A stretch of DNA of 38,654 bases from Hyphomicrobiales bacterium (lineage in GTDB: Bacteria > Pseudomonadota > Alphaproteobacteria > Rhizobiales > Methyloligellaceae). Below are positions 14,806 to 33,829 of the stretch, one piece after another. Made by a program: the position numbers and the translations under genes. The stretch covers positions 1 to 38,654 of the forward strand of contig JANQLP010000122.1 of assembly GCA_028280515.1 (NCBI GenBank). The letters run 5' to 3'. Each line of letters starts with the position of its first letter. The first letter of the stretch is position 1. The notes below the pieces were generated by a model. It ran no database searches and was not told the DNA's origin. It saw nothing but the letters and a program-made list of their open reading frames with translations.

Positions 14806-16473
14806 TCAGCGCACCGGCAGGATTTGCGGGGCGTCGACGGCATAGACGGCGATCATCTGCTCCCTGCCCTTCACGCTGACCCGGCGTTGGCGAAAACCGG
14901 AAAAATCGATCCCGCTGATCTCCGCCGTTTCCACCGAGACGACGAGCGGAACACCGAACTCCTTGGTCTGCGCTTCGAGACGCGCCGCCACATTCACATT
15001 GTCTCCGAGCGCGGAAATGATCGGCGATGCGGGTGGTCCCATCGAGCCGACAATGGCTTCGCCGGTGTGGATGCCGATGCCGATCTGGAGGTCCTCGCTC
15101 AATTCACCCGTCAGTTTCTCGTTCAGTTTCGCCAGGCGCGCCAGCATCGCCCGCGCGCCATGGATCGCTTCCGCCGCGCCCTGTTCCGCGCCCGACTCCA
15201 GTCCGTAGATAGCCATCAATCCGTCGCCATTGAACTGGGCATAGTGACCGTTTGTTTCCTTCAGCGCCTGCGCCAGTTCGGCAAAAAACTGGTTGAGCAC
15301 GAACACCACGTCGAACGGCAGACGGTCCTCGCACAGTTTGGTCGAGCCGCGCAGGTCGGCGAACAGCATCGCCACCTTGAGTTCCTGCCCCTGCTGGTAT
15401 CCGTGCTCGGCGTAAACGGCGTCTGCGTCCGCGTGACCGGGCACGAGCGCGACCACATCGAGGCTTGCCCGGGGGCGGATCTGGCAGGCGAGACGCACCG
15501 AAGGCGACGCCGCCACGCGGGCCAGAACCTTCTGCTCCGCGGGCGCCGGCGGTGGCAGGTCGTCAAGGCCTTGCCCGATGCGCACCCGGCATGTCGAGCA
15601 CCGCCCTCGCCCCCCGCAAATCGAGGCATGCGGGATGCCAGCGGCGCGGATCGATTCCAGTAAAGTCGCGCCGGGGTGGAGTTCGATCCTGCGATCGCCG
15701 GGCGAATAGGTCAGACGTGCCTTTGCCGTCTTCTTCGACAGGAAGCTTTTGACGGCGCGCGCGGCCAGCAGCGCCAGAACAAGCACGACCACAACCTTCT
15801 CGGTGTCATGGACGAAATCCACCATCCAAGGGCGGGCGGTCGAGGTATAGACCGCCTGAAGTCCTCCGGGTTCGATGGCGAACTGACGCACGCGCATGGT
15901 GGCGGCAAGATAACCGGCCAGTGCGACCGCGGGCACGATCAACGCCAATGCAAAAGCAACCGGTTGAACGCGGGGATACCAAGGCTGCAAGCGCAGAACA
16001 CTGCGCAGGCCGACGCACGCATGGGTCCAGACAATGACGACGGCGAATGCCATCATGATACCACGCCACGGCTCGTAGACCGCGAAGGTGGCAAGCGTCT
16101 CCATATAGGATGCGTTGTAGGTGCTGATCTCCGGCAACACCCCGTTCGCGGCGATGTGGGCGGCAAGTATCGGCGGGATGGCCAGACCGAAATAGAGCTG
16201 CACCATTTCCCAGCGCTTCATGCGGAAGGTGCGCCGGCGCCAGAATGCCGAAACGGCGATGTAGATATGAACAAGGAAGGCGGCGGCCAACAGAACGGTC
16301 CCGGGCCATGTCCGCCACGGATCGAGCAGGACGGCGGTCGCATCCTGCATTGCTCCGACCGACACAAGGCCGAACATGTGATTGAGCAAATGCCCGAACA
16401 CGAAAACGAACATGATGATCCCGCTTCCGAGCCGCAGCCGGTTTCGCAGTGTCTGTGCTTCGAAAAACGCCAT
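14806..16473 (-). CDS. Membrane class III nucleotide cyclase with quinone-reductase-like anchor and [2Fe-2S] ferredoxin domain
   Basis: This 555-residue protein has three modules. First come six membrane helices (about 14-36, 58-77, 90-110, 132-155, 172-192, 225-243) resembling the di-haem cytochrome b anchor of succinate:quinone oxidoreductases, with candidate haem ligands H28, H70, H106 and H151. Next is a [2Fe-2S] ferredoxin domain (about 252-345) with C286, C292, C295 and C330. Last is a class III cyclase domain (about 365-545) with metal-binding D373 (FADLRGST) and D417 (FNGDG), plus N494 and R498. The substrate-defining positions appear to be Q413 and S487 rather than the usual Lys and Asp/Thr. 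Related cyclases, such as CyaC of Sinorhizobium, respond to quinone redox state. This one probably couples respiratory redox state to cyclic nucleotide synthesis. Confidence 0.88.
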   Translation of the reverse strand: MAFFEAQTLRNRLRLGSGIIMFVFVFGHLLNHMFGLVSVGAMQDATAVLLDPWRTWPGTVLLAAAFLVHIYIAVSAFWRRRTFRMKRWEMVQLYFGLAIPPILAAHIAANGVLPEISTYNASYMETLATFAVYEPWRGIMMAFAVVIVWTHACVGLRSVLRLQPWYPRVQPVAFALALIVPAVALAGYLAATMRVRQFAIEPGGLQAVYTSTARPWMVDFVHDTEKVVVVLVLALLAARAVKSFLSKKTAKARLTYSPGDRRIELHPGATLLESIRAAGIPHASICGGRGRCSTCRVRIGQGLDDLPPPAPAEQKVLARVAASPSVRLACQIRPRASLDVVALVPGHADADAVYAEHGYQQGQELKVAMLFADLRGSTKLCEDRLPFDVVFVLNQFFAELAQALKETNGHYAQFNGDGLMAIYGLESGAEQGAAEAIHGARAMLARLAKLNEKLTGELSEDLQIGIGIHTGEAIVGSMGPPASPIISALGDNVNVAARLEAQTKEFGVPLVVSVETAEISGIDFSGFRQRRVSVKGREQMIAVYAVDAPQILPVR

Positions 16474-22291: not shown

Positions 22292-22307
22292 TTTGAGCAG
22301 GCTCAAA
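22292..22307. promoter_or_regulatory. FNR/FixK-type box TTTGAGC-AG-GCTCAAA
   Basis: A perfect 16-base palindrome whose core, TTGA-N6-TCAA, matches the half-site spacing of the CRP/FNR family and the rhizobial FixK2 consensus exactly. It lies 84 bp upstream of the Lon-like gene, a reasonable place for an activator near -40. It is the only such full match I noticed in the intergenic regions of the window. Confidence 0.65.
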
Positions 22308-22390
22308 GACTCGTCATGACATCGGGTTAGGGTCAGACTTCGACACGGCGATTTTCGCTGCCGACCAATTCAAGTTACCTTCCTTGTTCG

Positions 22391-24850
22391 ATGGCCAAAC
22401 AAAAGAAAAATGAAAACCAAGTTGCGCAGGCCTGCGCGGTTGAACCGAACCTGCTCCGCCGCCGGACGAACCCGTCCGCGTTAGGGTTCAAATCGACGGC
22501 GGAGCTCGACCCGATCACAGGACTGGTCGGTCAGGACCGAGCTCTTGCGGCGGTCGAGTTTGGCGTCGACATCTCCCAGCCCTCTTTCCATCTGTTCGTG
22601 CTAGGCCCGGCCGGAGCAGGACAGACGGAGGCCGTTAGCAGTTTTCTTAAGAAGAAGGCCGCGGAAGAGGAGCCGCCGTCGGAATGGGTTTACGTGAACA
22701 ACTTCGTCACGCAGCACAAGCCGCGTGCCATTTCCTTGCCGCGAGGCCGCGCCGGTGCATTGTCGAAGACGATGATCGACGCGATCGACGAGCTGCGCTC
22801 TTCGATTCCCGCCATGTTCGAAAGCGAAGATTACCAAGCACGACGCCGCGCCATCGACGAGCAGACGCACGGCTCCCAGGAGGAGGCGCTCGCCGCGCTG
22901 AACAAGAAGGCAGAGCAAGAGAGTATCGCGATCCTGCGGACGCCACTCGGGTTCGCCATGGCGCCGACGGTCGAGGGCAAGGTCATCAAGCCCGAGGAAT
23001 TCAACGAGTATCCGGAAGCCGAGCGCAAGGCGATCCAGGACAAGATCGAAGCACTGCAGAGCGAACTTGAAACCATCCTCAAGGAGGTTCCGCGGCTTGA
23101 AAAAGAGCGGCGCAAACGCGTTCGTGAGTTGAACGAAGAGCTCGCGCAGGTTGCCGTTCACGGAGCCTTAAGTGAGGCGGAAACGGCGTTTGCCGATCTG
23201 CCGGCTGTGACCGAATACCTCGAGAGCGTCAGGAAGGACCTGGTTGCAAACGTTGCGCTGTTCGTCTCTGACGGTGGCGAGGGCGAGGCGGTCGTGTCTC
23301 ACTCCGTCGACATTGAGCAGGATGCCCGCTATCGGCGCTACATGGTCAACATTATCATTGGTGATGACGACAGTGTCGGTGCACCCGTATTGGAAGAGGA
23401 CAATCCGACCCTCGGCAATCTGGTCGGACGGATTGAGCACCTCTCGCAGATGGGAGCGCTCGTAACCGACTTCCTGTTGATCAAGCCCGGCGTGCTGCAC
23501 AAGGCAAATGGCGGATATCTGCTGCTTGATGCGCGCAAGCTGCTCACTCAACCATTTGCCTGGGATGCGCTCAAACGTGCGCTCAAGAGCCGCGAGATCA
23601 CCATCGAGTCGCCGGGCGAGCACCTCTCCCTCGTCTCGACCGTCTCGCTCGACCCGGACCGTATTCCGCTGCGCGTGAAGGTGGCGTTGTTCGGCGACCG
23701 GACGCTCTATTATCTGTTGAGCGCGCTGGATCCGGAATTCTCCGCGCTTTTCAAGGTGGCCGCCGATTTCGACGACACCATGGATCACACGGAAGAGAAC
23801 ATCCATGTCTATGCCCGCCTCGTGGCGGCGCTGGCCGCGAAGCACCAACTGCGGCCGATCAATGCGGCCGGTGTTGCGCGCATTATCGACGAGAGCGCGC
23901 GGATGGCCGCAGATTCGGAGAAACTCACCCTGCAAATCGAAGACGTCGGCGACATGCTTTGCGAAGCCGACTACTGGGCGGGGCAAGCGGGCCGAAAGAC
24001 AATCAAGGCAGAGGATATCGCGAGGGCCGTGCAGGAGAACATCTTCCGGCTCGACCGGCTCCGGGAAAAGGCTCAGGAGTCGATTATCCGCAATATCATG
24101 CTGGTCGACACTGAGGGTTCGCACGTTGGGCAGATCAACGGTCTTAGTGTGCTTAGTCTGGGGAAGTTCGCGTTTGGAAGGCCGAGCCGGATTACCGCTC
24201 GGGTGAGGATGGGAACCGGACGGATCATCGACATAGAACGCGAGGTGGAGTTGGGAGGTCCGCTCCATTCGAAGGGTGTGATGATCCTGCGTGGGTTTCT
24301 GGAGGGACGATATGCGCACGACGTGCCGCTCTCGCTGACCGCCAGTCTCGTGTTCGAACAATCCTATGGCGGGGTCGACGGCGACAGCGCGTCATCGGCG
24401 GAGCTGTACACGTTGCTCTCGTCCCTTGCCGAGGTGCCTCTGAAGCAGTCCATTGCCGTGACCGGCTCCGTCAATCAGTACGGCCAGGTGCAGGCGATCG
24501 GCGGCGTGAACGAGAAGATCGAAGGGTTTTTCGACATCTGCAACGCACGCGGGCTGACGGGAGACCAGGGCGTGATCATCCCGAAGTCGAATGTCCCGCA
24601 CCTGATGCTGCGCGAAGATGTCGCCGAGGCGACCAGCAAGAGAAAATTCCACGTATATGCGGTCAAGACCATCGACGAGGGCATTCAGATTCTTACAGGC
24701 GTGCCCGCCGGCGAACGTGACAGCGAGAGCGTTTTTCCGGACGGGACGATAAACCGGAAGGTGGAAGACCGCCTCATCGCTTTTGCGGAGGCACGCCGGC
24801 GATTTGGCGCGCGCGAGGATGCCAGGCAAGGCGGAGAGGACGCCTCATGA
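22391..24850 (+). CDS. Lon-like protease with degenerate ATPase (YcbZ/AAA_32 type)
   Basis: This 819-residue protein has an N-terminal AAA_32-type region whose Walker A loop reads GPAGAGQT (72-79), with Gln in place of the usual Lys. A long helical insertion (about 130-265) is rich in Glu and Lys. A second ATPase part has GGYLLLDARKLL (374-385) in place of a clear Walker B. A C-terminal Lon protease domain (about 570-780) has the catalytic pair S666 in GDSASSAE and K709 in NEKIEGFF, 43 residues apart as in Lon. Proteolysis therefore looks intact while ATP hydrolysis looks doubtful. The gene overlaps the next by four bases and heads a three-gene operon. Confidence 0.87.
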   Translation: MAKQKKNENQVAQACAVEPNLLRRRTNPSALGFKSTAELDPITGLVGQDRALAAVEFGVDISQPSFHLFVLGPAGAGQTEAVSSFLKKKAAEEEPPSEWVYVNNFVTQHKPRAISLPRGRAGALSKTMIDAIDELRSSIPAMFESEDYQARRRAIDEQTHGSQEEALAALNKKAEQESIAILRTPLGFAMAPTVEGKVIKPEEFNEYPEAERKAIQDKIEALQSELETILKEVPRLEKERRKRVRELNEELAQVAVHGALSEAETAFADLPAVTEYLESVRKDLVANVALFVSDGGEGEAVVSHSVDIEQDARYRRYMVNIIIGDDDSVGAPVLEEDNPTLGNLVGRIEHLSQMGALVTDFLLIKPGVLHKANGGYLLLDARKLLTQPFAWDALKRALKSREITIESPGEHLSLVSTVSLDPDRIPLRVKVALFGDRTLYYLLSALDPEFSALFKVAADFDDTMDHTEENIHVYARLVAALAAKHQLRPINAAGVARIIDESARMAADSEKLTLQIEDVGDMLCEADYWAGQAGRKTIKAEDIARAVQENIFRLDRLREKAQESIIRNIMLVDTEGSHVGQINGLSVLSLGKFAFGRPSRITARVRMGTGRIIDIEREVELGGPLHSKGVMILRGFLEGRYAHDVPLSLTASLVFEQSYGGVDGDSASSAELYTLLSSLAEVPLKQSIAVTGSVNQYGQVQAIGGVNEKIEGFFDICNARGLTGDQGVIIPKSNVPHLMLREDVAEATSKRKFHVYAVKTIDEGIQILTGVPAGERDSESVFPDGTINRKVEDRLIAFAEARRRFGAREDARQGGEDAS

Positions 24851-25689
24851 CGGTACCGCGTGTCAAACACGACGTTCGCGGACGGGTTACGGTCCGCATG
24901 CGGGGCGGCGCGCCAAGCCCGTTGGTTCTCGAGGTGGCCGCACGGGTCGCGCGCTCGTTCCACGGTGAGATTCATGGCGTCTTCATTGAGCATGAGGAAC
25001 TGCTTGCACTCGCAGGGATGCCGTTCGCGAAGGAAATATCGTTGACCGGGCAAAGGACACGCACGCTTTCCCCGGAAGACGTGCGCAGAGAAATGAACGC
25101 GGCTTCCGCTGCAATGGAACGCAAGTTCGCCGCCCTGACACGGACGGCCCGCATCCCGGCGCATTTCAAGGTTATCCGGGACGTGACCGAAAAAGGGCTA
25201 CGCGAGGCAATCGGAGATACCGGCGTCCTTGCAATCGGCGAACCTGTTGCACTTGCCGCGCCTGATATCTTTCCCAAGCTGTTGGCGGATTTTTCCGGGT
25301 TTTCGGGTGTCGTCGTTGCCGGATGTGAGGCGCACCGGGCGAAGGGACCCGTGCTCACGGTCATCGATGCGGCGGCAGATGTCGCGTTGCTCGTCGACAC
25401 GGCGGAAAAACTGGCGGCCGAAGGGGCCCAGGGCGTCATCCTGCTTCTGGTCGGCACGGGACGTGACCTGGAACGGATGGAGGCGGAAGCCCGCGCCGCG
25501 CTGGATCCGGGAACCACATATCGGTTCGAACGGTCGGAACTTGAGACCCCTCAGACGCTTGCCTCGGTTGTGGAAGATCATTCGGCCGGGATCGTCGTTG
25601 CACGGGCTGGTGGGCCCGTTGCCGAGGGCGGAAGGGAAGCCGTTCGCTTCGCCTGCAGCATCCCCTGCCCGCTTTTGCTTTTGCGATAA
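24847..25689 (+). CDS. Usp-like protein of unknown function
   Basis: This is a 280-residue cytosolic protein that starts inside the stop of the protease gene (ATGA), so it is translationally coupled. The first half begins LVLEVAARVARSFHGEIHGVFIEHEELLALAGMPF, a pattern seen in universal stress proteins of rhizobia. The second half ends in SIPCPLLLLR, which resembles the last strand of the Usp fold (APCPVLVVR). The ATP-binding glycine motif expected before that strand is reduced to a GGPVAEGG-like stretch, so nucleotide binding is doubtful. It could be a tandem, degenerate Usp. I infer an adaptor or stress role alongside the protease and acetyltransferase. Confidence 0.7.
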   Translation: MTVPRVKHDVRGRVTVRMRGGAPSPLVLEVAARVARSFHGEIHGVFIEHEELLALAGMPFAKEISLTGQRTRTLSPEDVRREMNAASAAMERKFAALTRTARIPAHFKVIRDVTEKGLREAIGDTGVLAIGEPVALAAPDIFPKLLADFSGFSGVVVAGCEAHRAKGPVLTVIDAAADVALLVDTAEKLAAEGAQGVILLLVGTGRDLERMEAEARAALDPGTTYRFERSELETPQTLASVVEDHSAGIVVARAGGPVAEGGREAVRFACSIPCPLLLLR

Positions 25690-25723
25690 CTCGTGCGGCG
25701 CGCACGCAGAAAGACCTCACCTG

Positions 25724-28405
25724 ATGACAACACGTAACCTGAACTACTTCTTCGAACCGAAGTCGGTCGCCGTGATCGGCGCGAGCAGCCGGGAGGGATC
25801 GGTCGGCGCCGTCCTGGTTCAGAACATCATGCGCGGGGCGCTCGATGCACCGGTTTATCCGGTCAATCCAAAGCGTCAGCACGTCTTCGCCCTGCCCGCC
25901 TACCCGGACGTGGCGACCCTGCCGCAAACGCCCGAGCTCGCGATCATCGCAACGCCGCCGGCGACAATCCCGGGCATCATCAAGGAGCTTGGTGCGAAAG
26001 GAACGAAAGCGGCCGTCGTGATCAGCGCCGGTTTCTCGGACGGCGGCGCAGAGGGCCGCGACCTCAGACAGGACATGCTCGACCATGCGCGACCCAACCT
26101 GCTGCGCATCATCGGTCCGAACTGCCTCGGGATCATGGCACCGCATGTCGGTCTGAACGCGAGCTTCGCGAAGACGGATGCGCTGCCCGGACGGGTGGCG
26201 TTTGTGACGCAGTCCGGAGCCGTCGCGACCGCCGTGGTCGATTGGGCCCGCGAGCGCGGGATCGGCTTTTCCCACCTTGTCTCGCTCGGCGATATGTCGG
26301 ACGTCGATTTCGGCGACATGCTCGACTATCTCGCCACCGATCGGAAATCGCGCGCCGTGCTCCTTTACATCGAGGCGGTCACCGACGCGCGCAAATTCAT
26401 GTCGGCCGCCCGTGCGGCTTCCCGCGCCAAGCCGGTCATCGTTGTGAAGGTGGGCCGGTCAGAGGCCGGTGCCAAGGCTGCCGCGTCACATACGGGGTCC
26501 ATGGCCGGTGCGGACGAAGTCTATGAGGCGGCATTTCGGCGCGCCGGCGTGTTGCGCGTGTTCGCGCTGGACGAACTGTTCGATGCAGCGGAAACGCTCA
26601 GCAAGATCAATGTGCCCGGCGGCGACCGGCTTGCCATTCTGACCAATGGTGGTGGCGCCGGCGTTCTGGCGACAGATGCGCTGGCCATGAGAGGGGGACG
26701 GCTCGCGGACTTGCATCCGGAGACGCTCGCAGCCCTGGACAAGGTGCTCCCGAGCAACTGGTCGCACGGCAATCCGGTGGACATCATCGGCGATGCCCCG
26801 CCTAAGCGATATGAAGACAGTCTCAAGGTGCTGCTGGAAGATCATGATGCGGATGCGGTGCTGGTTCTGAGTTGCCCGACGGCGATGGCATCCGGCACGG
26901 TGACCGCCGAAGCGGTTATCCGGACCGCCAAGCAACACAAGAATGTGCCCGTTCTCACCAACTGGCTTGGTGGAGCATCCGTGAAGGATGCGCGAAAGCT
27001 CTTTTCCGACCACCAGGTGCCGACCTTCGAAACCCCGCACGATGCGGTTCGCGCCTACATGCATCTGATCAACTATCGCAAGGGCCAGATTTCGCTGATG
27101 GAAACGCCGCCATCGACCCCGGTCGAGTTCGCACCGGACACGGCAAAGGCGCGAGCGATCATCGAAGGCGTGCTGGAGGAAGGCCGCGATTTACTGACGG
27201 AACCGGAAGCAAAGGGGGTTCTGCAGGCTTATGAGATTCCGACGACACCGACGATGATTGCGTCCAGTCCCGCCGAGGCGCGCAAACTGGCTGGGCAAAT
27301 CGATGGTTCGGTGGTGATCAAGATCCTGTCGCGGGACATCACACATAAATCGGATGTGGGCGGTGTAGTGCTGGATCTGGAAACGCCGGAAGATGTGGAA
27401 AAGGCGGCCGCCGAGATGCTGCAGCGGGTGGCGGACGCCGCGCCGGACGCGCGCGTTGACGGCATCATGGTCCAAGAGATGCTCAAGCGCCGCCGCGGCT
27501 ATGAGCTTATTGTCGGCATCAGCGAAGACGCGCAATTCGGCCCGACGATCCTGTTTGGTCAGGGGGGTACCGGCGTGGAAGTACTCGACGATACGGTGCT
27601 CGGTCTGCCACCGCTCAACCTGCGCCTCGCCCATGAAATGCTGACCTCGACGCGGATTTACAATCTCCTGAAAGGGTTCCGCCATCGCCCGCCAATCGAC
27701 ATGCAGGCGCTCGAGCTCGTGCTCGTCAAGGTGTCCCAGTTGGCCATCGATATCGGCGAGGTCAAGGAGCTCGATATCAATCCGCTGCTTGCGGACGAGA
27801 ATGGTGTTGCGGCCCTCGATGCGCGCGTCCGCGTGGCTCCGTATGAGGGCCACCCGCACCGCCGGCTTGCGATCAAACCATATCCCAAAGAACTGGAGGA
27901 GACGGTCACGTTGAAGGACGGGCGGGAACTCCTGCTCCGTCCGATCATGGCCGAGGACGAACCGGCATTGCGCGAAGGGTTCGACAAGCTGACGCCGGAA
28001 GAGATCAAGATGCGCTTCTTCGTGCCGATGAAGGCCATGGACCATCTGATGGCGGCGCGGCTCAGCCAGATCAACTATGACCGCGAAATGGCTCTGCTTC
28101 TCACCGGTCCGGGTGCGCCCGGACAGGCGGAGATCTTCGGCGTGGCGCGTATCTCAGCCGACCCGAACAATGAACGGGCCGAGTATGCGCTGATCGTGCG
28201 CAACGAGATGACGGGTCAGGGCCTCGGCACGCTGTTGCTCGAAAAGATCATCGAATATGCGAGGGAGCGCGGAATCGAAGAGGTCCATGGCGCCGTGCTC
28301 CGCGAAAACCGGCCGATGCTGCGGCTCGTTGAAAAGCTCGGATTTGATATCGACCGGGTCACCGATGAGCCCTCGATTGTCATGAGCCGCATGAAGCTGC
28401 AATAA
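25724..28405 (+). CDS. Acyl-CoA synthetase (NDP-forming)-like / GNAT protein acetyltransferase (Pat/YfiQ type)
   Basis: The ATG at 25724 gives 893 residues, close to YfiQ/Pat (about 886). A longer in-frame extension upstream only overlaps the Usp-like gene. The order is a CoA-binding domain (about 8-100, SVAVIGASSREGSVG), succinyl-CoA-ligase-like domains (about 150-460, including ASHTGSMAGADE), an ATP-grasp domain (about 490-715) and a C-terminal GNAT acetyltransferase (about 727-893) with MTGQGLGTLLLEKII. In characterised Pat proteins the synthetase part does not make acetyl-CoA but regulates lysine acetylation of acetyl-CoA synthetase and other targets. The gene follows the Usp-like gene by 34 bp and probably ends the operon. 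Confidence 0.9.
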   Translation: MTTRNLNYFFEPKSVAVIGASSREGSVGAVLVQNIMRGALDAPVYPVNPKRQHVFALPAYPDVATLPQTPELAIIATPPATIPGIIKELGAKGTKAAVVISAGFSDGGAEGRDLRQDMLDHARPNLLRIIGPNCLGIMAPHVGLNASFAKTDALPGRVAFVTQSGAVATAVVDWARERGIGFSHLVSLGDMSDVDFGDMLDYLATDRKSRAVLLYIEAVTDARKFMSAARAASRAKPVIVVKVGRSEAGAKAAASHTGSMAGADEVYEAAFRRAGVLRVFALDELFDAAETLSKINVPGGDRLAILTNGGGAGVLATDALAMRGGRLADLHPETLAALDKVLPSNWSHGNPVDIIGDAPPKRYEDSLKVLLEDHDADAVLVLSCPTAMASGTVTAEAVIRTAKQHKNVPVLTNWLGGASVKDARKLFSDHQVPTFETPHDAVRAYMHLINYRKGQISLMETPPSTPVEFAPDTAKARAIIEGVLEEGRDLLTEPEAKGVLQAYEIPTTPTMIASSPAEARKLAGQIDGSVVIKILSRDITHKSDVGGVVLDLETPEDVEKAAAEMLQRVADAAPDARVDGIMVQEMLKRRRGYELIVGISEDAQFGPTILFGQGGTGVEVLDDTVLGLPPLNLRLAHEMLTSTRIYNLLKGFRHRPPIDMQALELVLVKVSQLAIDIGEVKELDINPLLADENGVAALDARVRVAPYEGHPHRRLAIKPYPKELEETVTLKDGRELLLRPIMAEDEPALREGFDKLTPEEIKMRFFVPMKAMDHLMAARLSQINYDREMALLLTGPGAPGQAEIFGVARISADPNNERAEYALIVRNEMTGQGLGTLLLEKIIEYARERGIEEVHGAVLRENRPMLRLVEKLGFDIDRVTDEPSIVMSRMKLQ

Positions 28406-28426: not shown

Positions 28427-31177
28427 CTAGGCGGTTGCTCCAGCCACGACCATCTTCTCGAAGACGAAGGGCAAGACGCCACCTGCCTGGACGTATGCCA
28501 CGTCATCCGGGGTATCGAGACGGGCGCGCACCAAGGTCAAGTGTGACCGGCCGTCTGGATAGTGAATCGCAAGGGTGAGTTCGCGCCTTTCCCGCAGCCC
28601 CTCGCCTATTCCGATGATGTCGAAGGTCTCTTCCCCGGTCAGTCCGAGGCTCTTGCGCCCTTCGCCATTCATGAACTGGAGCGGAAGGATGCCCATGCCC
28701 ACCAGATTGCTGCGGTGGATACGTTCATAGCTCTCTGCAATGACGGCCCGAACGCCAAGCAGCTTGACGCATTTGGCCGCTGTGTCGCGGGATGAACCAC
28801 AGCCATACTCCTTGCCGGCAACCACAATGAGCCCGACGCCGCGCGAGCGATACGCGCATGCCGCATCGAATACCGTCATCTGCTCGCGGTCGGGCATGAG
28901 CAGCGTGAGGCTGCCTTCGCTGCCCGGAATGATCTCGTTCTGGAGCCGGTTGTTTGCGAAGGCGGAGCGCATGGCCACCTCGTGGTTTCCACGCCGCGTG
29001 CCGAACGTGTTGAAGTCGGTCGGGGTGACACCGCGCGCTTGCAGATAGGCGCCGGCAGCGCTGTCGGCGGGGATCGCGCCTGACGGTGAAATATGGTCGG
29101 TGGTGATGGAATCGCCCAACATGACCAGCGGGCGAAGGCCGTGCAGGTCGGTCTTCGGCGTTGACGAGCCGTCGTCTACGTCAAAGTACGGGGCGCTCTT
29201 CAGATACGTGCTGTCCTCTTCCCATTCGAAGGTGGTGCCGGCGAAGGTGCCGAGCGCCTCCCAGCCGGACCCTCCATCGAGCACCGCGTCATACGAGTCC
29301 GCGAAGAGATGCGATTTGACGGCGCTCGCGGTGATCTTCGCGATCTCCTCGTCGCTCGGCCAGATGTCCTTCAAGTAGACCTCTTTGCCGTCGTTTCCGA
29401 CGCCGAGCGGTGCCGATGAAACATCGATCCGCATGCTGCCCGCCAACGCGTATGCGACAACCAAGGGCGGCGACATGATATAGTTCGCCCGGCAATGGGG
29501 ATGAATGCGGCCGGCAAAGTTGCGGTTTCCCGAGAGCACGGCGGCGCAGGTCAGGTCATGCTCCTCGATTGTCTTGGCTATGGGCTCGGCCAGCGGGCCC
29601 GATCCGCCATTGCATGTGGTGCATCCGAACCCGACGATGTGAAAGCCGAGCGCATCGAGATGCTGCTGCAAGCCCGCTTCCCTGAGATAGTCGGCGACCA
29701 CCTGCGAGCCTGGCGCGAAACTGGTCTTGATCCAGGGCTTTGCCGTCAGCCCGCGTTCAAGGGCGTTGCGGGCCAGCAATGCCGCGCCGATCACCACCGC
29801 CGGGTTCGACGTGTTCGTGCAACTCGTGATCGCCGCGATCACAATGTCGCCGTCGCCGAGATCGAAACCGTTGCCCGGCACACCGTGGCGTTCGTCTAAT
29901 GGCTTCAGTACAAACTCTTCTTCGATGTTCTTGTGCGCGTCCGCCAAGGTGACACGGTCCTGCGGCCGGCGCGGGCCGGCTATGCTCGGCACGATCCCGG
30001 ACAGGTCGATCTCGATCAACTCGTCAAACTCCGGTAACGGCGAACCGGTTTCGCGCCAGAGGCCCTGGGCGCGGGCGCAACGCTCGACGAATGCGACGTG
30101 ATCCGCCTCGCGCCCGGAAAGAGACAGATAATCGATTGTCTGCCGGTCGATGGGAAAGTACACGCAGGTGGCGCCATATTCGGGTGCCATATTGGAAATG
30201 GTGCAACGGTCCGCGGCAGGCAGTTCATCCAGGCTGTCGCCGCAGAATTCGACGAATTTGCCGACGACACCGAGCTGGCGCAGGCGCTCAGTGATCGTCA
30301 GCACGAGATCGGTCGCGGTGATGCCGGGAGTCCTCGCGCCCACCAGCTTGATGCCGATCACTTCCGGCACGGGAAATGATGTCTCACGCCCAAGCATGGC
30401 CATTTCGGCCTCGAGACCGCCAACGCCCCAGCCGACGACGCCGATGCCGTTGACCATCGGCGTATGACTGTCCGTTCCGTAAACCGTGTCCGGATAGGCT
30501 GCGCCCGACGCATCGTCAATCTGGTAGCCGCGCGCCAGAAACTCGATGTTGATCTGATGCATGATCCCTTTTCCCGGCGGAATGATCCGGACATTGGAAA
30601 AGGACGACTGGCACCAGTGCAGGAAGCGATAGCGCTCCCGGTTCATTTCCAGCTCGATCGCCTCGTTCTTTTCGCGCGCGCCATGGGCGCCGAAATGCAC
30701 CGGGATCAGGGAGTGGTCGATGACAAGATCGACGGGCAGCCGCGGATTGATGTCTTCCGGCGCAGCACCATGCGCCTGTGCCGCGTCCCGCATGGATGAC
30801 AAGTCGACCATGACCGGCACACCCAACATGTCCTGCAGCAAAATTCGGGCGGGCAGGAATGCGACAGGTTTGCCCACCTTGCGTCGAACGATGCGTTCCG
30901 CACTCTTCCGATCACCGCGGCGCAGGGCGTTCTCAAGGAGCACGCGCAGGCTGTAGGGCAGCGCAGCAAGATTTGCCCCGAACTCTCCACAGCCGGCCGT
31001 CAGATCGACAAGCTTGAGCCCGCTCTCATTGTCCTCGATATGTGTCAGTCCGGCCTCCGTCTTCCCGCTGAAGGTCCTGATTGTCGGATCATACACCAAA
31101 CCATCATCGACCGGCCAAACACACACTCGCCGGACTGGATCTCCAAATGCGCGCGGGCCGGACCTGTTCGCCCGCAT
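28427..31177 (-). CDS. acnA: Aconitase-family hydratase (AcnA-like)
   Basis: This is a 916-residue protein if begun at the ATG at 31177; a TTG at 31195 would add six residues. The first ~50 residues do not resemble aconitase, so the true start may lie further in. The family pattern starts near LPYSLRVLLENALRRGD. The [4Fe-4S] ligands are present in SCTNTSNP and GCTTCNGGSGP, and substrate-binding motifs GTDSHTPMVNG, GNRNFAGR and EYGCGSSRD are intact. The sequence departs from ordinary AcnA at several places, such as DHSLIPVHFG and FLHWCQSSF. It could be a second aconitase or a related hydratase such as 2-methylcitrate/2-methylisocitrate AcnD. It is convergent with the acetyltransferase gene, 21 bp apart. 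Confidence 0.82.
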   Translation of the reverse strand: MRANRSGPRAFGDPVRRVCVWPVDDGLVYDPTIRTFSGKTEAGLTHIEDNESGLKLVDLTAGCGEFGANLAALPYSLRVLLENALRRGDRKSAERIVRRKVGKPVAFLPARILLQDMLGVPVMVDLSSMRDAAQAHGAAPEDINPRLPVDLVIDHSLIPVHFGAHGAREKNEAIELEMNRERYRFLHWCQSSFSNVRIIPPGKGIMHQINIEFLARGYQIDDASGAAYPDTVYGTDSHTPMVNGIGVVGWGVGGLEAEMAMLGRETSFPVPEVIGIKLVGARTPGITATDLVLTITERLRQLGVVGKFVEFCGDSLDELPAADRCTISNMAPEYGATCVYFPIDRQTIDYLSLSGREADHVAFVERCARAQGLWRETGSPLPEFDELIEIDLSGIVPSIAGPRRPQDRVTLADAHKNIEEEFVLKPLDERHGVPGNGFDLGDGDIVIAAITSCTNTSNPAVVIGAALLARNALERGLTAKPWIKTSFAPGSQVVADYLREAGLQQHLDALGFHIVGFGCTTCNGGSGPLAEPIAKTIEEHDLTCAAVLSGNRNFAGRIHPHCRANYIMSPPLVVAYALAGSMRIDVSSAPLGVGNDGKEVYLKDIWPSDEEIAKITASAVKSHLFADSYDAVLDGGSGWEALGTFAGTTFEWEEDSTYLKSAPYFDVDDGSSTPKTDLHGLRPLVMLGDSITTDHISPSGAIPADSAAGAYLQARGVTPTDFNTFGTRRGNHEVAMRSAFANNRLQNEIIPGSEGSLTLLMPDREQMTVFDAACAYRSRGVGLIVVAGKEYGCGSSRDTAAKCVKLLGVRAVIAESYERIHRSNLVGMGILPLQFMNGEGRKSLGLTGEETFDIIGIGEGLRERRELTLAIHYPDGRSHLTLVRARLDTPDDVAYVQAGGVLPFVFEKMVVAGATA

Positions 31178-31426
31178 ACTGCGCGCGTAGGTCAACGGAG
31201 ACGGCCTGCCCTGCGACCTGGAAACAGTGAACCCATAGTTTCAACACAAGTCCTGAAGCAATCGTGCTGACACGGTCCGCACCCTGTTGGCTGTTCGGGA
31301 CGTAGCTATTTTCAACTCCGAGTCGTGCGGCATTTGCCGTTATGATGAAAAGATATGCAAAGCCGGGCTTGCCTAAACGGCGAGCCGTGCCATGCGCTCG
31401 CCCGGCGCGTTCGGAAGCGAACTGGA

Positions 31427-33829
31427 ATGCAGGATAAGGAGGTTCGTCTCGCGGTCGTCCTGACGGGCGGTGTCTCGCTCGCGATCTATATGCATGGCGT
31501 GACGAAGGAGCTGCTGAAGCTCGTGCGCGCATCGCGCTCCTATCACATGCGATCCGACACTGAAGGCGCCATGCCCGAGACCTATGTCGACAGTTGCAAC
31601 AGACGCGAAGTCGATACCGAAGCTGTCTATTTCGACCTGCTGAAGTCGTTCGCGCCGGAACTCGATCTGCGGGTGGTCATCGACGTGATCGCCGGCGCGT
31701 CGGCGGGAGGCGTCAACGGCATCATGCTCGCGCGTACCCTCGCCCACGATCTCGATATGGATCCTCACCGGCAGATGTGGCTGGACCATGCCGATGTTCT
31801 CCAACTCATCGATGAGAAATCCTCCGCCCGGAGCTGGCGCAAGCTGTATGTCTGGCCGATGGCCGGCCTGCTGCTCGGCCGGCAGCTTCATGCGATGGCG
31901 CCGGAAAAGGAAACGCGTGAAAAGCTCAGCGCATTCCTGCGTTCACGCTGGTTTCATCCGCCATTTTCGGGAGAGCGCTATACGTCGTGGCTGCTCGACG
32001 CATCGAGCGCAATGGAGCGAAAGGCACCGCTCAACGGTTCGCTGTTGCCGCAAGGGCATGCCCTCGATTTGTCCGTGAGCGTGACCGATTTTCACGGTCA
32101 CTCGAACCGCATTGCGCTTCACGATCCGCCGGAGATCGAAGAGCGCGATCACAGGCTGGTCTTGAAGTTTGCCTATCTCAAGTCGGCCGACGGAACGGTT
32201 ACGTCGGACTTCGACGCCGCCTCAGCGCCGGGACTTGTTTTCGCCGCACGTGCGACCTCGTGCTTCCCGGGCGCCTTTCCTCCGGCATCGCTCGGTGAAA
32301 TCGATACGCTGCTGGCGCGCCGTGGCGGTGCCTGGCCGGCCCGGGCGCGCTTCGTCGATGGCCAACTGGCCACATTCGCGACCGAGGGGAAGGACCTTAA
32401 AGCGGTCCGGTTCATCGACGGGAGCGTTGTCAACGACAAGCCGTTCGGGGCAGCGGTGGCTTCGATCGCTGGACGGGCCGCGCACCGCGAAGTCTCGCGC
32501 CGCATTGTATTCGTCGAACCGAACCCGCTCGACACGGCGATGGCGCAGGATCTGGCAGAACCCGGGTTTTTCCGGACCATTATTTCCTCGCTCGCGGAGA
32601 TTCCACGCAACGAGCCGATCCATGACGACCTTGCCCGTATCAACGCGTTCAATGGAAACATCCGGCTTATCCGGCAGGTGGTGCGGCAGACCGCACCCGT
32701 CATAGACCGGTTCGTCGACATCATTCTGCCACCCTCCGGCGAGGAGATGCGTCCGACCGCGGACGAAATTGCGGAATGGCGCCAGCAGGCCAACGATCAG
32801 GCGGCGCGGGAGGCGGGCTATGCGTTTCACACCTACTTCCGGCTCAAGGTCTTGGGGGTTGCCAAGCATCTGGAGTCCTTGATCTCGGCGCTGGCGTGGC
32901 CGGGGAACGGACCTGAGGTGCCGGCGCACGCACGGCTCGGGTTTCTCGCGGCCCTGAGCGAGTACGATGTGGGGGAGATCGACTGGCGGGACCGTTCAGG
33001 CACCGATCCGGTGAGCGAACCGGAAATCCAATTCCTGAAGTCGTTCGACGTCGATTTCCGGGTGCGGCGAATCCGCTTTGTCATCCGGCGGCTGAACGAG
33101 CTCTACCAGGTTGCCCTTGCAACGCCCGAGATCCGTTATCAGACGGATCGGCTCGATGATCTCAAGACGACACTTTATGAGCTGTTGGCGGAAGCGAAAG
33201 GACGATGGACGCCGGACCACTACGCGCCGCGCATTGTCACGGGGTTGAAGAGGAAACGGCGTGCCGGTCCGGGGCCCGACGCGTTCACGCCGGTGTTCTG
33301 GCGCATATCCGACGCCATGGCGCTCGACAAGCTCGATGGTTCGATCGACGAGGTCTTCGCCATCATGGTGCTGAACTATATTCCGCAGGAACTGCGCCGC
33401 GATCTGTTTGCCGCCTATATCGGATTCTCTTTCTTCGACGTGATGAGCTACCCGATGGTCCAGTGGGAGGACCTCGACGAATTCGAGGAAATTCTGATCG
33501 ACCGGATCAGCCCGGCAGATGCCGTGGCAATTCGCAAGGGAGGCGCGCGTGAAATCCTGCAAGGCACGGCCCTGCGCCGTTTTGGCGGGTTCTTCAATCG
33601 CAGCTACCGCGAGAACGACTATCTCTGGGGACGGCTCAACGCGGCCGACCGGCTGGTCGACATCATCGTTTCGGCCGTCGGTGAAAGCGGCGTGTCGCAC
33701 GACCTTGAGGTTCTGTCGATCAAACGCCGTTTGTTCGAGGCGATTCTCGATGCGGAGGAGCCGTTTCTAAAGGCGGATAGGAACCTGATACGCACGATCC
33801 GTGAGGAAATCCGCACGATATCTGCCTGA
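31427..33829 (+). CDS. Patatin-like protein (TIGR03607 type)
   Basis: I chose the ATG at 31427 (800 residues), with GGAAG upstream; the ATG at 31355 adds 24 residues of poor quality. The patatin hydrolase domain lies at the N-terminus. LTGGVSLAIYMHG (12-24) is its oxyanion-type glycine loop, the nucleophile is S92 in GASAGG, and the partner is D331 in DGS. The remaining ~430 residues match the long C-terminal region (DUF3376-like) of the TIGR03607 proteins. Patatins are acyl hydrolases acting on membrane lipids. There is no signal peptide, so it should act in the cytosol or at the inner membrane. It is divergent from the aconitase gene, about 250 bp apart. Confidence 0.87.
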   Translation: MQDKEVRLAVVLTGGVSLAIYMHGVTKELLKLVRASRSYHMRSDTEGAMPETYVDSCNRREVDTEAVYFDLLKSFAPELDLRVVIDVIAGASAGGVNGIMLARTLAHDLDMDPHRQMWLDHADVLQLIDEKSSARSWRKLYVWPMAGLLLGRQLHAMAPEKETREKLSAFLRSRWFHPPFSGERYTSWLLDASSAMERKAPLNGSLLPQGHALDLSVSVTDFHGHSNRIALHDPPEIEERDHRLVLKFAYLKSADGTVTSDFDAASAPGLVFAARATSCFPGAFPPASLGEIDTLLARRGGAWPARARFVDGQLATFATEGKDLKAVRFIDGSVVNDKPFGAAVASIAGRAAHREVSRRIVFVEPNPLDTAMAQDLAEPGFFRTIISSLAEIPRNEPIHDDLARINAFNGNIRLIRQVVRQTAPVIDRFVDIILPPSGEEMRPTADEIAEWRQQANDQAAREAGYAFHTYFRLKVLGVAKHLESLISALAWPGNGPEVPAHARLGFLAALSEYDVGEIDWRDRSGTDPVSEPEIQFLKSFDVDFRVRRIRFVIRRLNELYQVALATPEIRYQTDRLDDLKTTLYELLAEAKGRWTPDHYAPRIVTGLKRKRRAGPGPDAFTPVFWRISDAMALDKLDGSIDEVFAIMVLNYIPQELRRDLFAAYIGFSFFDVMSYPMVQWEDLDEFEEILIDRISPADAVAIRKGGAREILQGTALRRFGGFFNRSYRENDYLWGRLNAADRLVDIIVSAVGESGVSHDLEVLSIKRRLFEAILDAEEPFLKADRNLIRTIREEIRTISA

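Follow-up and report, generated by a model that had tools for sequence, protein, structure and literature searches.

The window, that is, the whole stretch of 38,654 nucleotides analysed here, carries a three-gene run. The best explanation, to which a probability of about 0.58 is assigned, is an operon activated by FnrL at low oxygen, in which an old core of two genes, for a LonC-like Ser-Lys protease (LON) and a dedicated tandem universal stress protein (USP), is followed by a third gene (gene 3). The LON-USP pair is the conserved core of the operon and spans several phyla, and gene 3 is a rare addition to it.

Organization of the locus

The observed order of genes and of the elements upstream of them is the following:

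22292-22307, no strand: putative FNR/FixK-type operator TTTGAGCAGGCTCAAA (TTGA-N6-TCAA), a perfect palindrome 83 bp before the LON ATG
22328-22333, plus strand: putative -10 element TAGGGT, 28.5 bp from the site centre, suggestive of class II activator geometry
22391-24850, plus strand: LON, S16 protease ORF of 819 aa with an intact open frame
24847-25689, plus strand: USP, tandem universal stress protein of 280 aa, with a 4-bp ATGA overlap with LON
25724-28405, plus strand: gene 3, NDP-forming acyl-CoA synthetase-GNAT fusion of 893 aa, after a 34-bp gap behind USP
28427-31195, minus strand: aconitase AcnA, convergent, outside the operon and marking its 3' end

The three-gene run behind a palindrome described in the initial annotation is thus confirmed in its ORFs, their plus-strand orientation, the 4-bp overlap, the 34-bp gap and the palindrome TTTGAGCAGGCTCAAA itself. 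A scan for sigma-70 promoters and terminators gave no more matches than shuffled sequences, with no terminator-like site in either gene gap; LON, USP and gene 3 are probably co-transcribed, and read-through from the upstream MFS gene may also reach the operon.

The LON-USP pair

A close tie between the Usp-like protein and the protease is supported. Of 119 loci that extend 700 bp or more past LON, 88 have USP as the very next gene and 31 have no USP match; in 49 of the 119, an NTGA 4-bp overlap opens a frame of more than 200 aa. These counts omit loci with less than 150 bp upstream or less than 700 bp downstream and the duplicates L157 and L178 (of L040 and L071), and the order matches G140 and G066:C216 were left out of the locus set. 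The pair occurs in proteobacterial, Chlorobiaceae, Anaerolineae, planctomycete, Latescibacterota, Balneolaceae, Salinivenus and Trueperaceae loci. In the phylum sample of the Trueperaceae, USP is present at 6/6 window-type loci versus 0/24 more distant LonC-like loci, the latter typed by identity level and not by tree, and including one (L276) that ends early downstream. A pairing of the Thermus-type LonC with the tandem Usp TTHA0350 was accordingly rejected, as none of these 24 loci, with L276 short downstream, has a USP match. No LON-USP gene fusion was found when the LON frames of the collected loci were read from stop to stop, and a literature search that covered few subscription papers returned no description of this pair. 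Four LON genes lacking USP (L048, L069, L072 and L082, with one representative per cluster identified) adjoin DnaK- and/or DnaJ-like genes.

The window USP has no direct sequence match in Pfam, NCBIfam or PDB. Its Usp-like identity is nevertheless upheld by its family, in which 25 of 43 aligned members, the window protein not among them, match Pfam Usp (PF00582) at E ≤0.01, and by the predicted fold (mean pLDDT 90.6), which matches tandem Usps. The G-2x-G-9x-G[S/T] nucleotide motif, which belongs to a subset of Usps, is absent from the window USP and present in its strict form in 11 of the 43 members.

The protease

LON is composed of AAA_32, LonB_AAA-LID, LonC_helical and Lon_C domains. The intact Ser-Lys pair initially reported stands, since Ser666 and Lys709 are invariant in 120/120 aligned sequences, and the protease motif positions around them are mostly invariant or nearly so (the alignment omits L102, which has an internal stop, and the short L019, L128, L129 and L186). 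In the P-loop, Gln78 replaces Lys and Glu80 replaces the usual Thr/Ser, and the position after the Walker-B Asp is Ala, Val, Ile, Thr or Met in all 120 sequences and never Glu. The congeners L118 and L119 keep the intact P-loop GPPGAGKTT; Gln78 rests on a single codon, CAG, in a draft assembly, the codon being AAG in both congeners. Because near relatives have an intact P-loop, nucleotide binding, and perhaps hydrolysis, is possible for the LON family. AsrA (PA0779) may be a family member.

The best solved relative is a LonC (MtaLonC, PDB 4fwd; E 8.6e-88), compared with E 6.6e-26 for the LonB-like 3k1j. MtaLonC is described, in the part of PMC3391209 consulted, as having no ATPase activity and degrading unfolded proteins only. 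By analogy, LON is probably a LonC-like protease in which ATP-driven unfolding of the substrate is absent. The earlier proposal of a Lon-type protease acting in targeted proteolysis therefore holds for the Ser-Lys protease, and targeting is doubtful in a LonC-like enzyme with neither the Walker-B Glu nor the P-loop Lys. It is very unlikely that LON is here a decaying or scaffold protein: the substitutions at positions 78 and 80, where the congeners L118 and L119 keep the canonical P-loop, would fit such a loss, but the frame is intact, the catalytic pair is invariant, the surrounding protease motif is mostly kept, the protein is 77% identical to L118, and MtaLonC, according to the same part of PMC3391209, works without ATPase activity.

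The FNR-type site and a candidate regulator

In the window alone, the single TTGA-N6-TCAA match is unremarkable (0.36 expected; at least one match in 29 of 100 shuffles). Over the whole genome of the organism, 87 copies of the motif were counted versus 28 for the reversed control, and a perfect site lies within 300 bp upstream of LON in 17 of the 119 loci (shuffle mean 0.54, maximum 3, in 200 runs) and is absent from this interval in 102; in the LON upstream stretches, TTGA-N6-TCAA ranks first among 2816 inverted words. A comparison with other conserved ORFs, made on the first 89 loci, gave sites at 14/89 LON genes versus 21/319 other ORFs (odds ratio 2.6, p 0.01), a result weaker than the shuffle test, which is read as LON loci sitting among other FNR-site genes. 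Relatives of gene 3, separately, have the site upstream in 11 of 60 cases (shuffle mean 0.16, maximum 2, in 300-bp stretches), three of the 11 belonging to one genus with the same site; the 60 matches were taken from 148 genomes of the order, and some start a few residues inside the gene. In the 300-bp stretches TTGA-N6-TCAA is the sole first-ranking word, and in 380-bp stretches it ties with GCCG-N3-CGGC (11/60 each). Among 28 compared sites (omitting L208 and L209, which share the site of L202), TANNNT matches lying 26.5-31.5 bp from the site centre, a range picked after inspecting the data, number 9 in 6 offsets versus 5 in the other 35, and the hexamer is most frequent at the window's own distance of 28.5 bp (4/28).

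Conservation of the site among the closest relatives was rejected, since neither the congeners L118 and L119 nor the next relative L120 has a perfect site within 350 bp upstream of LON; their best near-sites have 3, 1 (at -282) and 2 mismatches, respectively. Mapped on the LON tree, the presence of the site takes 14 changes to explain, and regulation through the site turns over, as judged from its absence in the nearest relatives. Conservation of the palindrome in relatives, on which the initial annotation had made its model depend, thus fails for the nearest relatives, although the site recurs in distant ones. The window half-sites carry G/C at the fifth position, unlike the T/A of the canonical TTGAT-N4-ATCAA (given in the part of PMC2908626 consulted).

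A candidate regulator is encoded in the same genome. The FnrL-like protein P0004 scores 261 bits against the FnrL model, under its 300-bit cut-off, and has cysteines at positions 13, 16, 24 and 110, which we take to be the cluster ligands; its gene has one TTGA-N6-TCAA site 83 bp before the start codon and another inside the gene start, and shares its contig with cbb3 genes and with a Usp gene preceded by a site at a distance of 67 bp. The site at 22292-22307 is probably functional, because of this regulator, the recurrence of the motif upstream of LON and gene-3 relatives, and the -10-like element. The FNR-type control postulated for the operon thus gains support, at the level of sequence, from the FnrL-like gene, the separate enrichments at LON and gene 3, and a class-II-like -10 spacing.

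Somewhat doubtful is the alternative that LON and USP form a general proteostasis pair under mixed regulation, the palindrome being incidental or serving another CRP/FNR member (FixK, DNR or CRP). It would account for the lack of a site at 68 of the 83 pair loci that have sufficient flanking sequence up- and downstream and for the DnaK- and/or DnaJ-like neighbours of the four USP-less LON genes, and other regulators are available, since 9 proteins of the genome exceed the HTH_Crp_2 cut-off, one of which (on contig C85) is nearest to the FixK model, lacks the N-terminal cysteine set and also has a site upstream of its gene. Against it stand the enrichment of exactly TTGA-N6-TCAA upstream of both LON and gene 3, accompanied by a -10-like element spaced as for an activator, and the presence of an FnrL-like gene that has its own upstream site.

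Published FnrL regulons include Usp genes, according to the parts consulted of PMC4634722, PMC5398030, PMC4263372 and PMC2908626; selective term searches of the main texts of these four papers turned up no Lon protease or protein acetyltransferase as an FnrL target, the nearest being a single membrane-protease-like protein in PMC4634722. In the microoxia tables of PMC6515984, as far as consulted, bll6068 (GNAT) and bll6069 (Usp) of B. diazoefficiens appear.

Gene 3

Gene 3 combines a CoA_binding/Succ_CoA_lig/ATP-grasp_5 region with a GNAT domain, and is under the cut-offs of the NCBIfam ligase models. The assignment as a Pat/YfiQ-type acetyltransferase is correct as to a synthetase region followed by GNAT, and incomplete in that the ligase histidine is kept (His256, in SHTG; HTG is kept in 13/13 relatives examined). 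The synthetase region of Pat/YfiQ is catalytically dead, its active-site His having been lost. Since gene 3 keeps this residue, its product may form acetate and ATP, either alongside protein acetylation or in place of it.

Of the 78 pair loci with 2 kb or more of sequence downstream, only 2, the window and L108, have gene 3 behind LON-USP; these two are far apart on the LON tree, and in both the three genes lie behind TTGA-N6-TCAA. In the two LON-carrying congeners there is no gene-3 match in the stretches around the pair. In L124 (G058) gene 3 is found on the opposite strand, 1.7 kb beyond LON, and in L171 (G268) likewise at 9.4 kb. A conserved three-gene unit was therefore rejected. For the other two elements of the initial annotation, oxygen-linked lysine acetylation directing proteolysis and a Usp adaptor that would join the acetyltransferase to the protease, the only evidence found is co-location.

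An oxygen-responsive circuit, with enzymes acetylated by the gene-3 product and then brought to the protease through the Usp, is considered unlikely. The recurrence of the three genes behind a site in the distant L108, the proximity of LON and gene 3 (10 kb or less) in 3 of the 19 order genomes having both, and the FNR-type sites of the gene-3 relatives themselves are in its favour. Nevertheless, besides the rarity of gene 3 next to the pair, the gene is no commoner in genomes with LON (19/44) than in the whole order sample (148/297), and with the ligase His kept, protein acetylation is not its sole possible job.

Proposed function

Under the preferred reading of an FnrL-activated operon, [4Fe-4S]-FnrL would bind TTGA-N6-TCAA, at about -41.5, when oxygen falls, and would recruit RNA polymerase; LON and USP would be made in translational coupling, and the LON chamber, by analogy with MtaLonC, would take in unfolded or damaged proteins at little or no ATP cost, a cheap proteolysis that would be useful in energy-limited cells. 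Because of the deep gene pairing, USP is most likely a regulatory or feeding partner of LON. Gene 3, as its catalytic His and GNAT domain suggest, would convert acetyl-CoA to ATP and acetate, acetylate enzymes, or both; among its relatives in the order, independent FNR-type sites are a recurrent feature, and here it stands downstream of the pair. LON is probably an energy-saving quality-control enzyme, turned on when respiration fails, and gene 3 would tie the same switch to acetyl-CoA chemistry, whether to make ATP by fermentation or to acetylate proteins.

Many bacteria induce Usp proteins under stress and at low oxygen, and what these proteins do at the molecular level is mostly unknown. 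A Usp kept beside one protease subfamily across several phyla, often with translational coupling, offers a testable handle on Usp function. More tentatively, LON-USP may be an undescribed, phylum-spanning two-part machine for proteolysis, in which a dedicated tandem Usp gates the entrance to a Lon chamber that works without ATP. Repeated wiring of this machine to oxygen-sensing FNR-type regulators would let ATP-short cells clear damaged protein cheaply, and the acyl-CoA ligase in the operon described here might serve to regenerate ATP; if so, Usps would gain a concrete molecular job as protease partners.

Comparison with known systems

With LonC proteases, LON shares the LonC_helical domain, a gapless alignment of the protease domain (LON residues 626-771) to MtaLonC/TTC1975 (4fwd), and a Walker-B-like GGYLLLDA that lacks Glu, a feature also described for MtaLonC in the part of PMC3391209 consulted. 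It differs in that its identity to the LonC-like relatives of the Trueperaceae phylum sample is about 30-35%, its close relatives keep a canonical P-loop, window-type and LonC-like proteins are separate genes in G336, G361, G363 and G368, and the window-type LON is paired with USP, whereas LonC-like loci are unpaired.

Gene 3 matches the Pat/YfiQ type (PDB 9it0 and 9isq, which we take to be YfiQ-linked entries) over its full length (1-883), in the same domain order (E 3.7e-214), but these structures show a gap at the HTG ligase histidine that gene 3 and 13/13 relatives keep. The CoA-ligase and ATP-grasp domains are common to ADP-forming acyl-CoA synthetases (2csu, 4xyl, 8wzu), and the SHTG histidine is aligned in 2csu and 8wzu; gene 3 differs from them by an extra C-terminal GNAT domain.

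The operon resembles the FnrL regulon of alphaproteobacteria in its TTGA-N6-TCAA site and Usp target (PMC4634722, PMC5398030 and PMC2908626, in the parts consulted, where Usps are known FnrL targets). With tandem Usps, USP shares two Usp-like halves in 280 aa and Foldseek matches to UspE (4r2j, E 1.9e-09), Rv2623 (3cis, 1.0e-07) and TTHA0350 (3ab8, 3.3e-07); it differs from them in sequence, with about 15% identity, and in being the gene partner of LON.

Gene content of the locus

The order of the three genes and the palindrome preceding them, as proposed in the initial annotation, were borne out in the window, where the relevant features are:

14806-16473 (-): adenylate/guanylate cyclase (predicted) bearing a 2Fe-2S ferredoxin domain
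22292-22307: TTGA-N6-TCAA palindrome (window site)
22391-24850 (+): LON, Lon-like S16 protease
24847-25689 (+): USP, tandem Usp protein
25724-28405 (+): gene 3, NDP-forming acyl-CoA synthetase extended by a C-terminal GNAT domain
31355-33829 (+): long patatin-like protein (TIGR03607), adjoining an aconitase gene

The aconitase gene is convergent with the operon, from the far side. Profile searches assign the AAA_32, LonB LID, LonC_helical and Lon_C domains to LON. Direct database searches with the window USP protein returned no match; Pfam Usp matches 25 of 43 aligned USP members, and the predicted USP model (mean pLDDT 90.6) resembles tandem Usps, among them UspE and Rv2623. The Usp nucleotide motif is absent in window USP and kept in 11 of the 43 members.

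Conservation of the LON–USP pair

LON–USP is the conserved core of the three-gene locus and its interesting part, and the literature searched yields no description of the pair. LON relatives comprised the best 80 of 589 confirmed candidates plus further loci from additional genomes, giving 125 loci once two duplicates were dropped, 119 of them with at least 700 bp downstream. USP lies immediately downstream of LON in 88 of these 119 loci and is absent after it in 31; for the window and the loci from its order, the pair is found in 43 of the 45 with sufficient sequence (exceptions, L125 and L126). It occurs in proteobacterial, Chlorobiaceae, Anaerolineae, Salinivenus, Balneolaceae, Latescibacterota, planctomycete and Trueperaceae loci, and on the LON tree the loci with USP group together (15 changes in presence vs a shuffled mean of 27.7). 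The LON stop overlaps by 4 bp the start codon of a frame exceeding 200 aa in 49/119 loci; given such translational coupling, the two proteins are plausible physical partners, and no LON–USP fusion was found among the collected loci.

Several neighborhoods have further content. In the congeners L118 and L119, a Na/Ca exchanger gene lies upstream of the pair, and a gene clustering with a P-type cation ATPase representative is convergent downstream. Genes clustering with DnaK, DnaJ, or both adjoin USP-less LON in L048, L069, L072 and L082; in the pair locus L074, another Usp-family gene follows about 2.6 kb downstream, and several genes are preceded by FNR-type sites.

The FNR-type site

The idea of a low-oxygen promoter is supported by sequence statistics. 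A perfect site lies within 300 bp upstream of LON in 17 of 119 loci (mean 0.54, maximum 3, in 200 shuffles), and TTGA-N6-TCAA ranks alone at the top there among inverted 4-mer words with spacings of 2 to 12. It also precedes 11 of 60 gene-3 relatives (shuffles 0.16, maximum 2), six at -66 to -71, three of these six from one genus. Class II FNR promoters have the operator centered at -41.5. In the sequence downstream of 28 sites compared, TANNNT occurs nine times at 26.5-31.5 bp from the site center, a range picked after looking, vs five over the other 35 distances; the window has TAGGGT at 28.5 bp, and this spacing corresponds to a predicted class II geometry.

The window's own genome contains 87 TTGA-N6-TCAA sites vs 28 for the reversed word. 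Its FnrL-like protein (261 bits, below the FnrL model cut-off of 300) has cysteines at 13, 16, 24 and 110, and its gene carries one site 83 bp before the start codon and another inside the gene start. The same contig (C44; loci L147 and L148) bears cytochrome c, cbb3 oxidase, Usp and uroporphyrinogen methyltransferase genes, with a site shortly before each of the last two, and is an apparent low-oxygen island. Motif enrichment, the FnrL-like gene and the class II geometry together make it probable that the window site is a genuine activator site.

Several observations count against this reading. Conservation of the site in relatives did not hold: it is absent in 102 of the 119 LON loci, the nearest relatives included. 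Its presence changes 14 times on the LON tree, and other conserved ORFs in the first 89 loci have sites at 21/319; from this patchiness and these other sites, we read LON as a gene repeatedly recruited into putative FNR-type regulons.

Gene 3, a late or loose addition

The complete gene order is rare: gene 3 follows the pair in two (the window and L108) of the 78 pair loci whose downstream sequence reaches 2 kb or more. It lies on the opposite strand past LON in L124 (1.7 kb) and L171 (9.4 kb), and none was found around the pair in L118 and L119 within the 10 and 18 kb searched. Of the 44 order genomes that carry LON, 19 also have gene 3, vs 148/297 in the whole order sample, so the two genes show no tendency to co-occur. 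In three of the 19 order genomes carrying both they lie less than 10 kb apart, which appears to exceed random placement (about 0.1 expected by our estimate). Because L108 and the window are widely separated on the LON tree, the adjacency has probably arisen on two or more occasions. The arrangements in L124 and L171, which neighbor each other on that tree, may reflect one single event. Gene 3 is a late or loose addition to LON–USP.

For the proposed circuit linking acetylation to targeted proteolysis, we found nothing in support besides co-location. The ligase histidine (His256, in SHTG) is present in gene 3 and in 13/13 relatives checked, unlike the Pat-type structures 9it0 and 9isq, which have a gap at this position; gene 3 may, because this residue is kept, convert acetyl-CoA + ADP + Pi into acetate + ATP, a reaction sensible under oxygen limitation, besides or instead of acetylating proteins. 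In the order sample, the top-scoring relative of gene 3 (L252; G186:C16:5557-8232; 68%) contains one in-frame TAG, from decay or assembly error.

Comparison with LonC

In the sample of the Trueperaceae phylum, window-type LON is accompanied by USP in 6/6 loci and a more distant LonC-like type in 0/24 (one incomplete downstream). Both types coexist in four of these genomes, so that window-type LON looks like a sister of LonC, not LonC itself. Ser666 and Lys709 are invariant in 120/120 aligned LON sequences. The P-loop reads GPAGAGQTE in window LON vs the canonical GPPGAGKTT in congeners, the lysine loss being one codon in one draft assembly. The closest solved relative in the PDB search is MtaLonC, which PMC3391209 describes as being without ATPase activity and degrading unfolded proteins as its sole substrates; the window LON family has, similarly to MtaLonC, a Walker-B-like GGYLLLDA without Glu. 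Given this likeness, the missing Glu and the altered P-loop, window LON would likely clear unfolded protein independently of ATP, as MtaLonC does.
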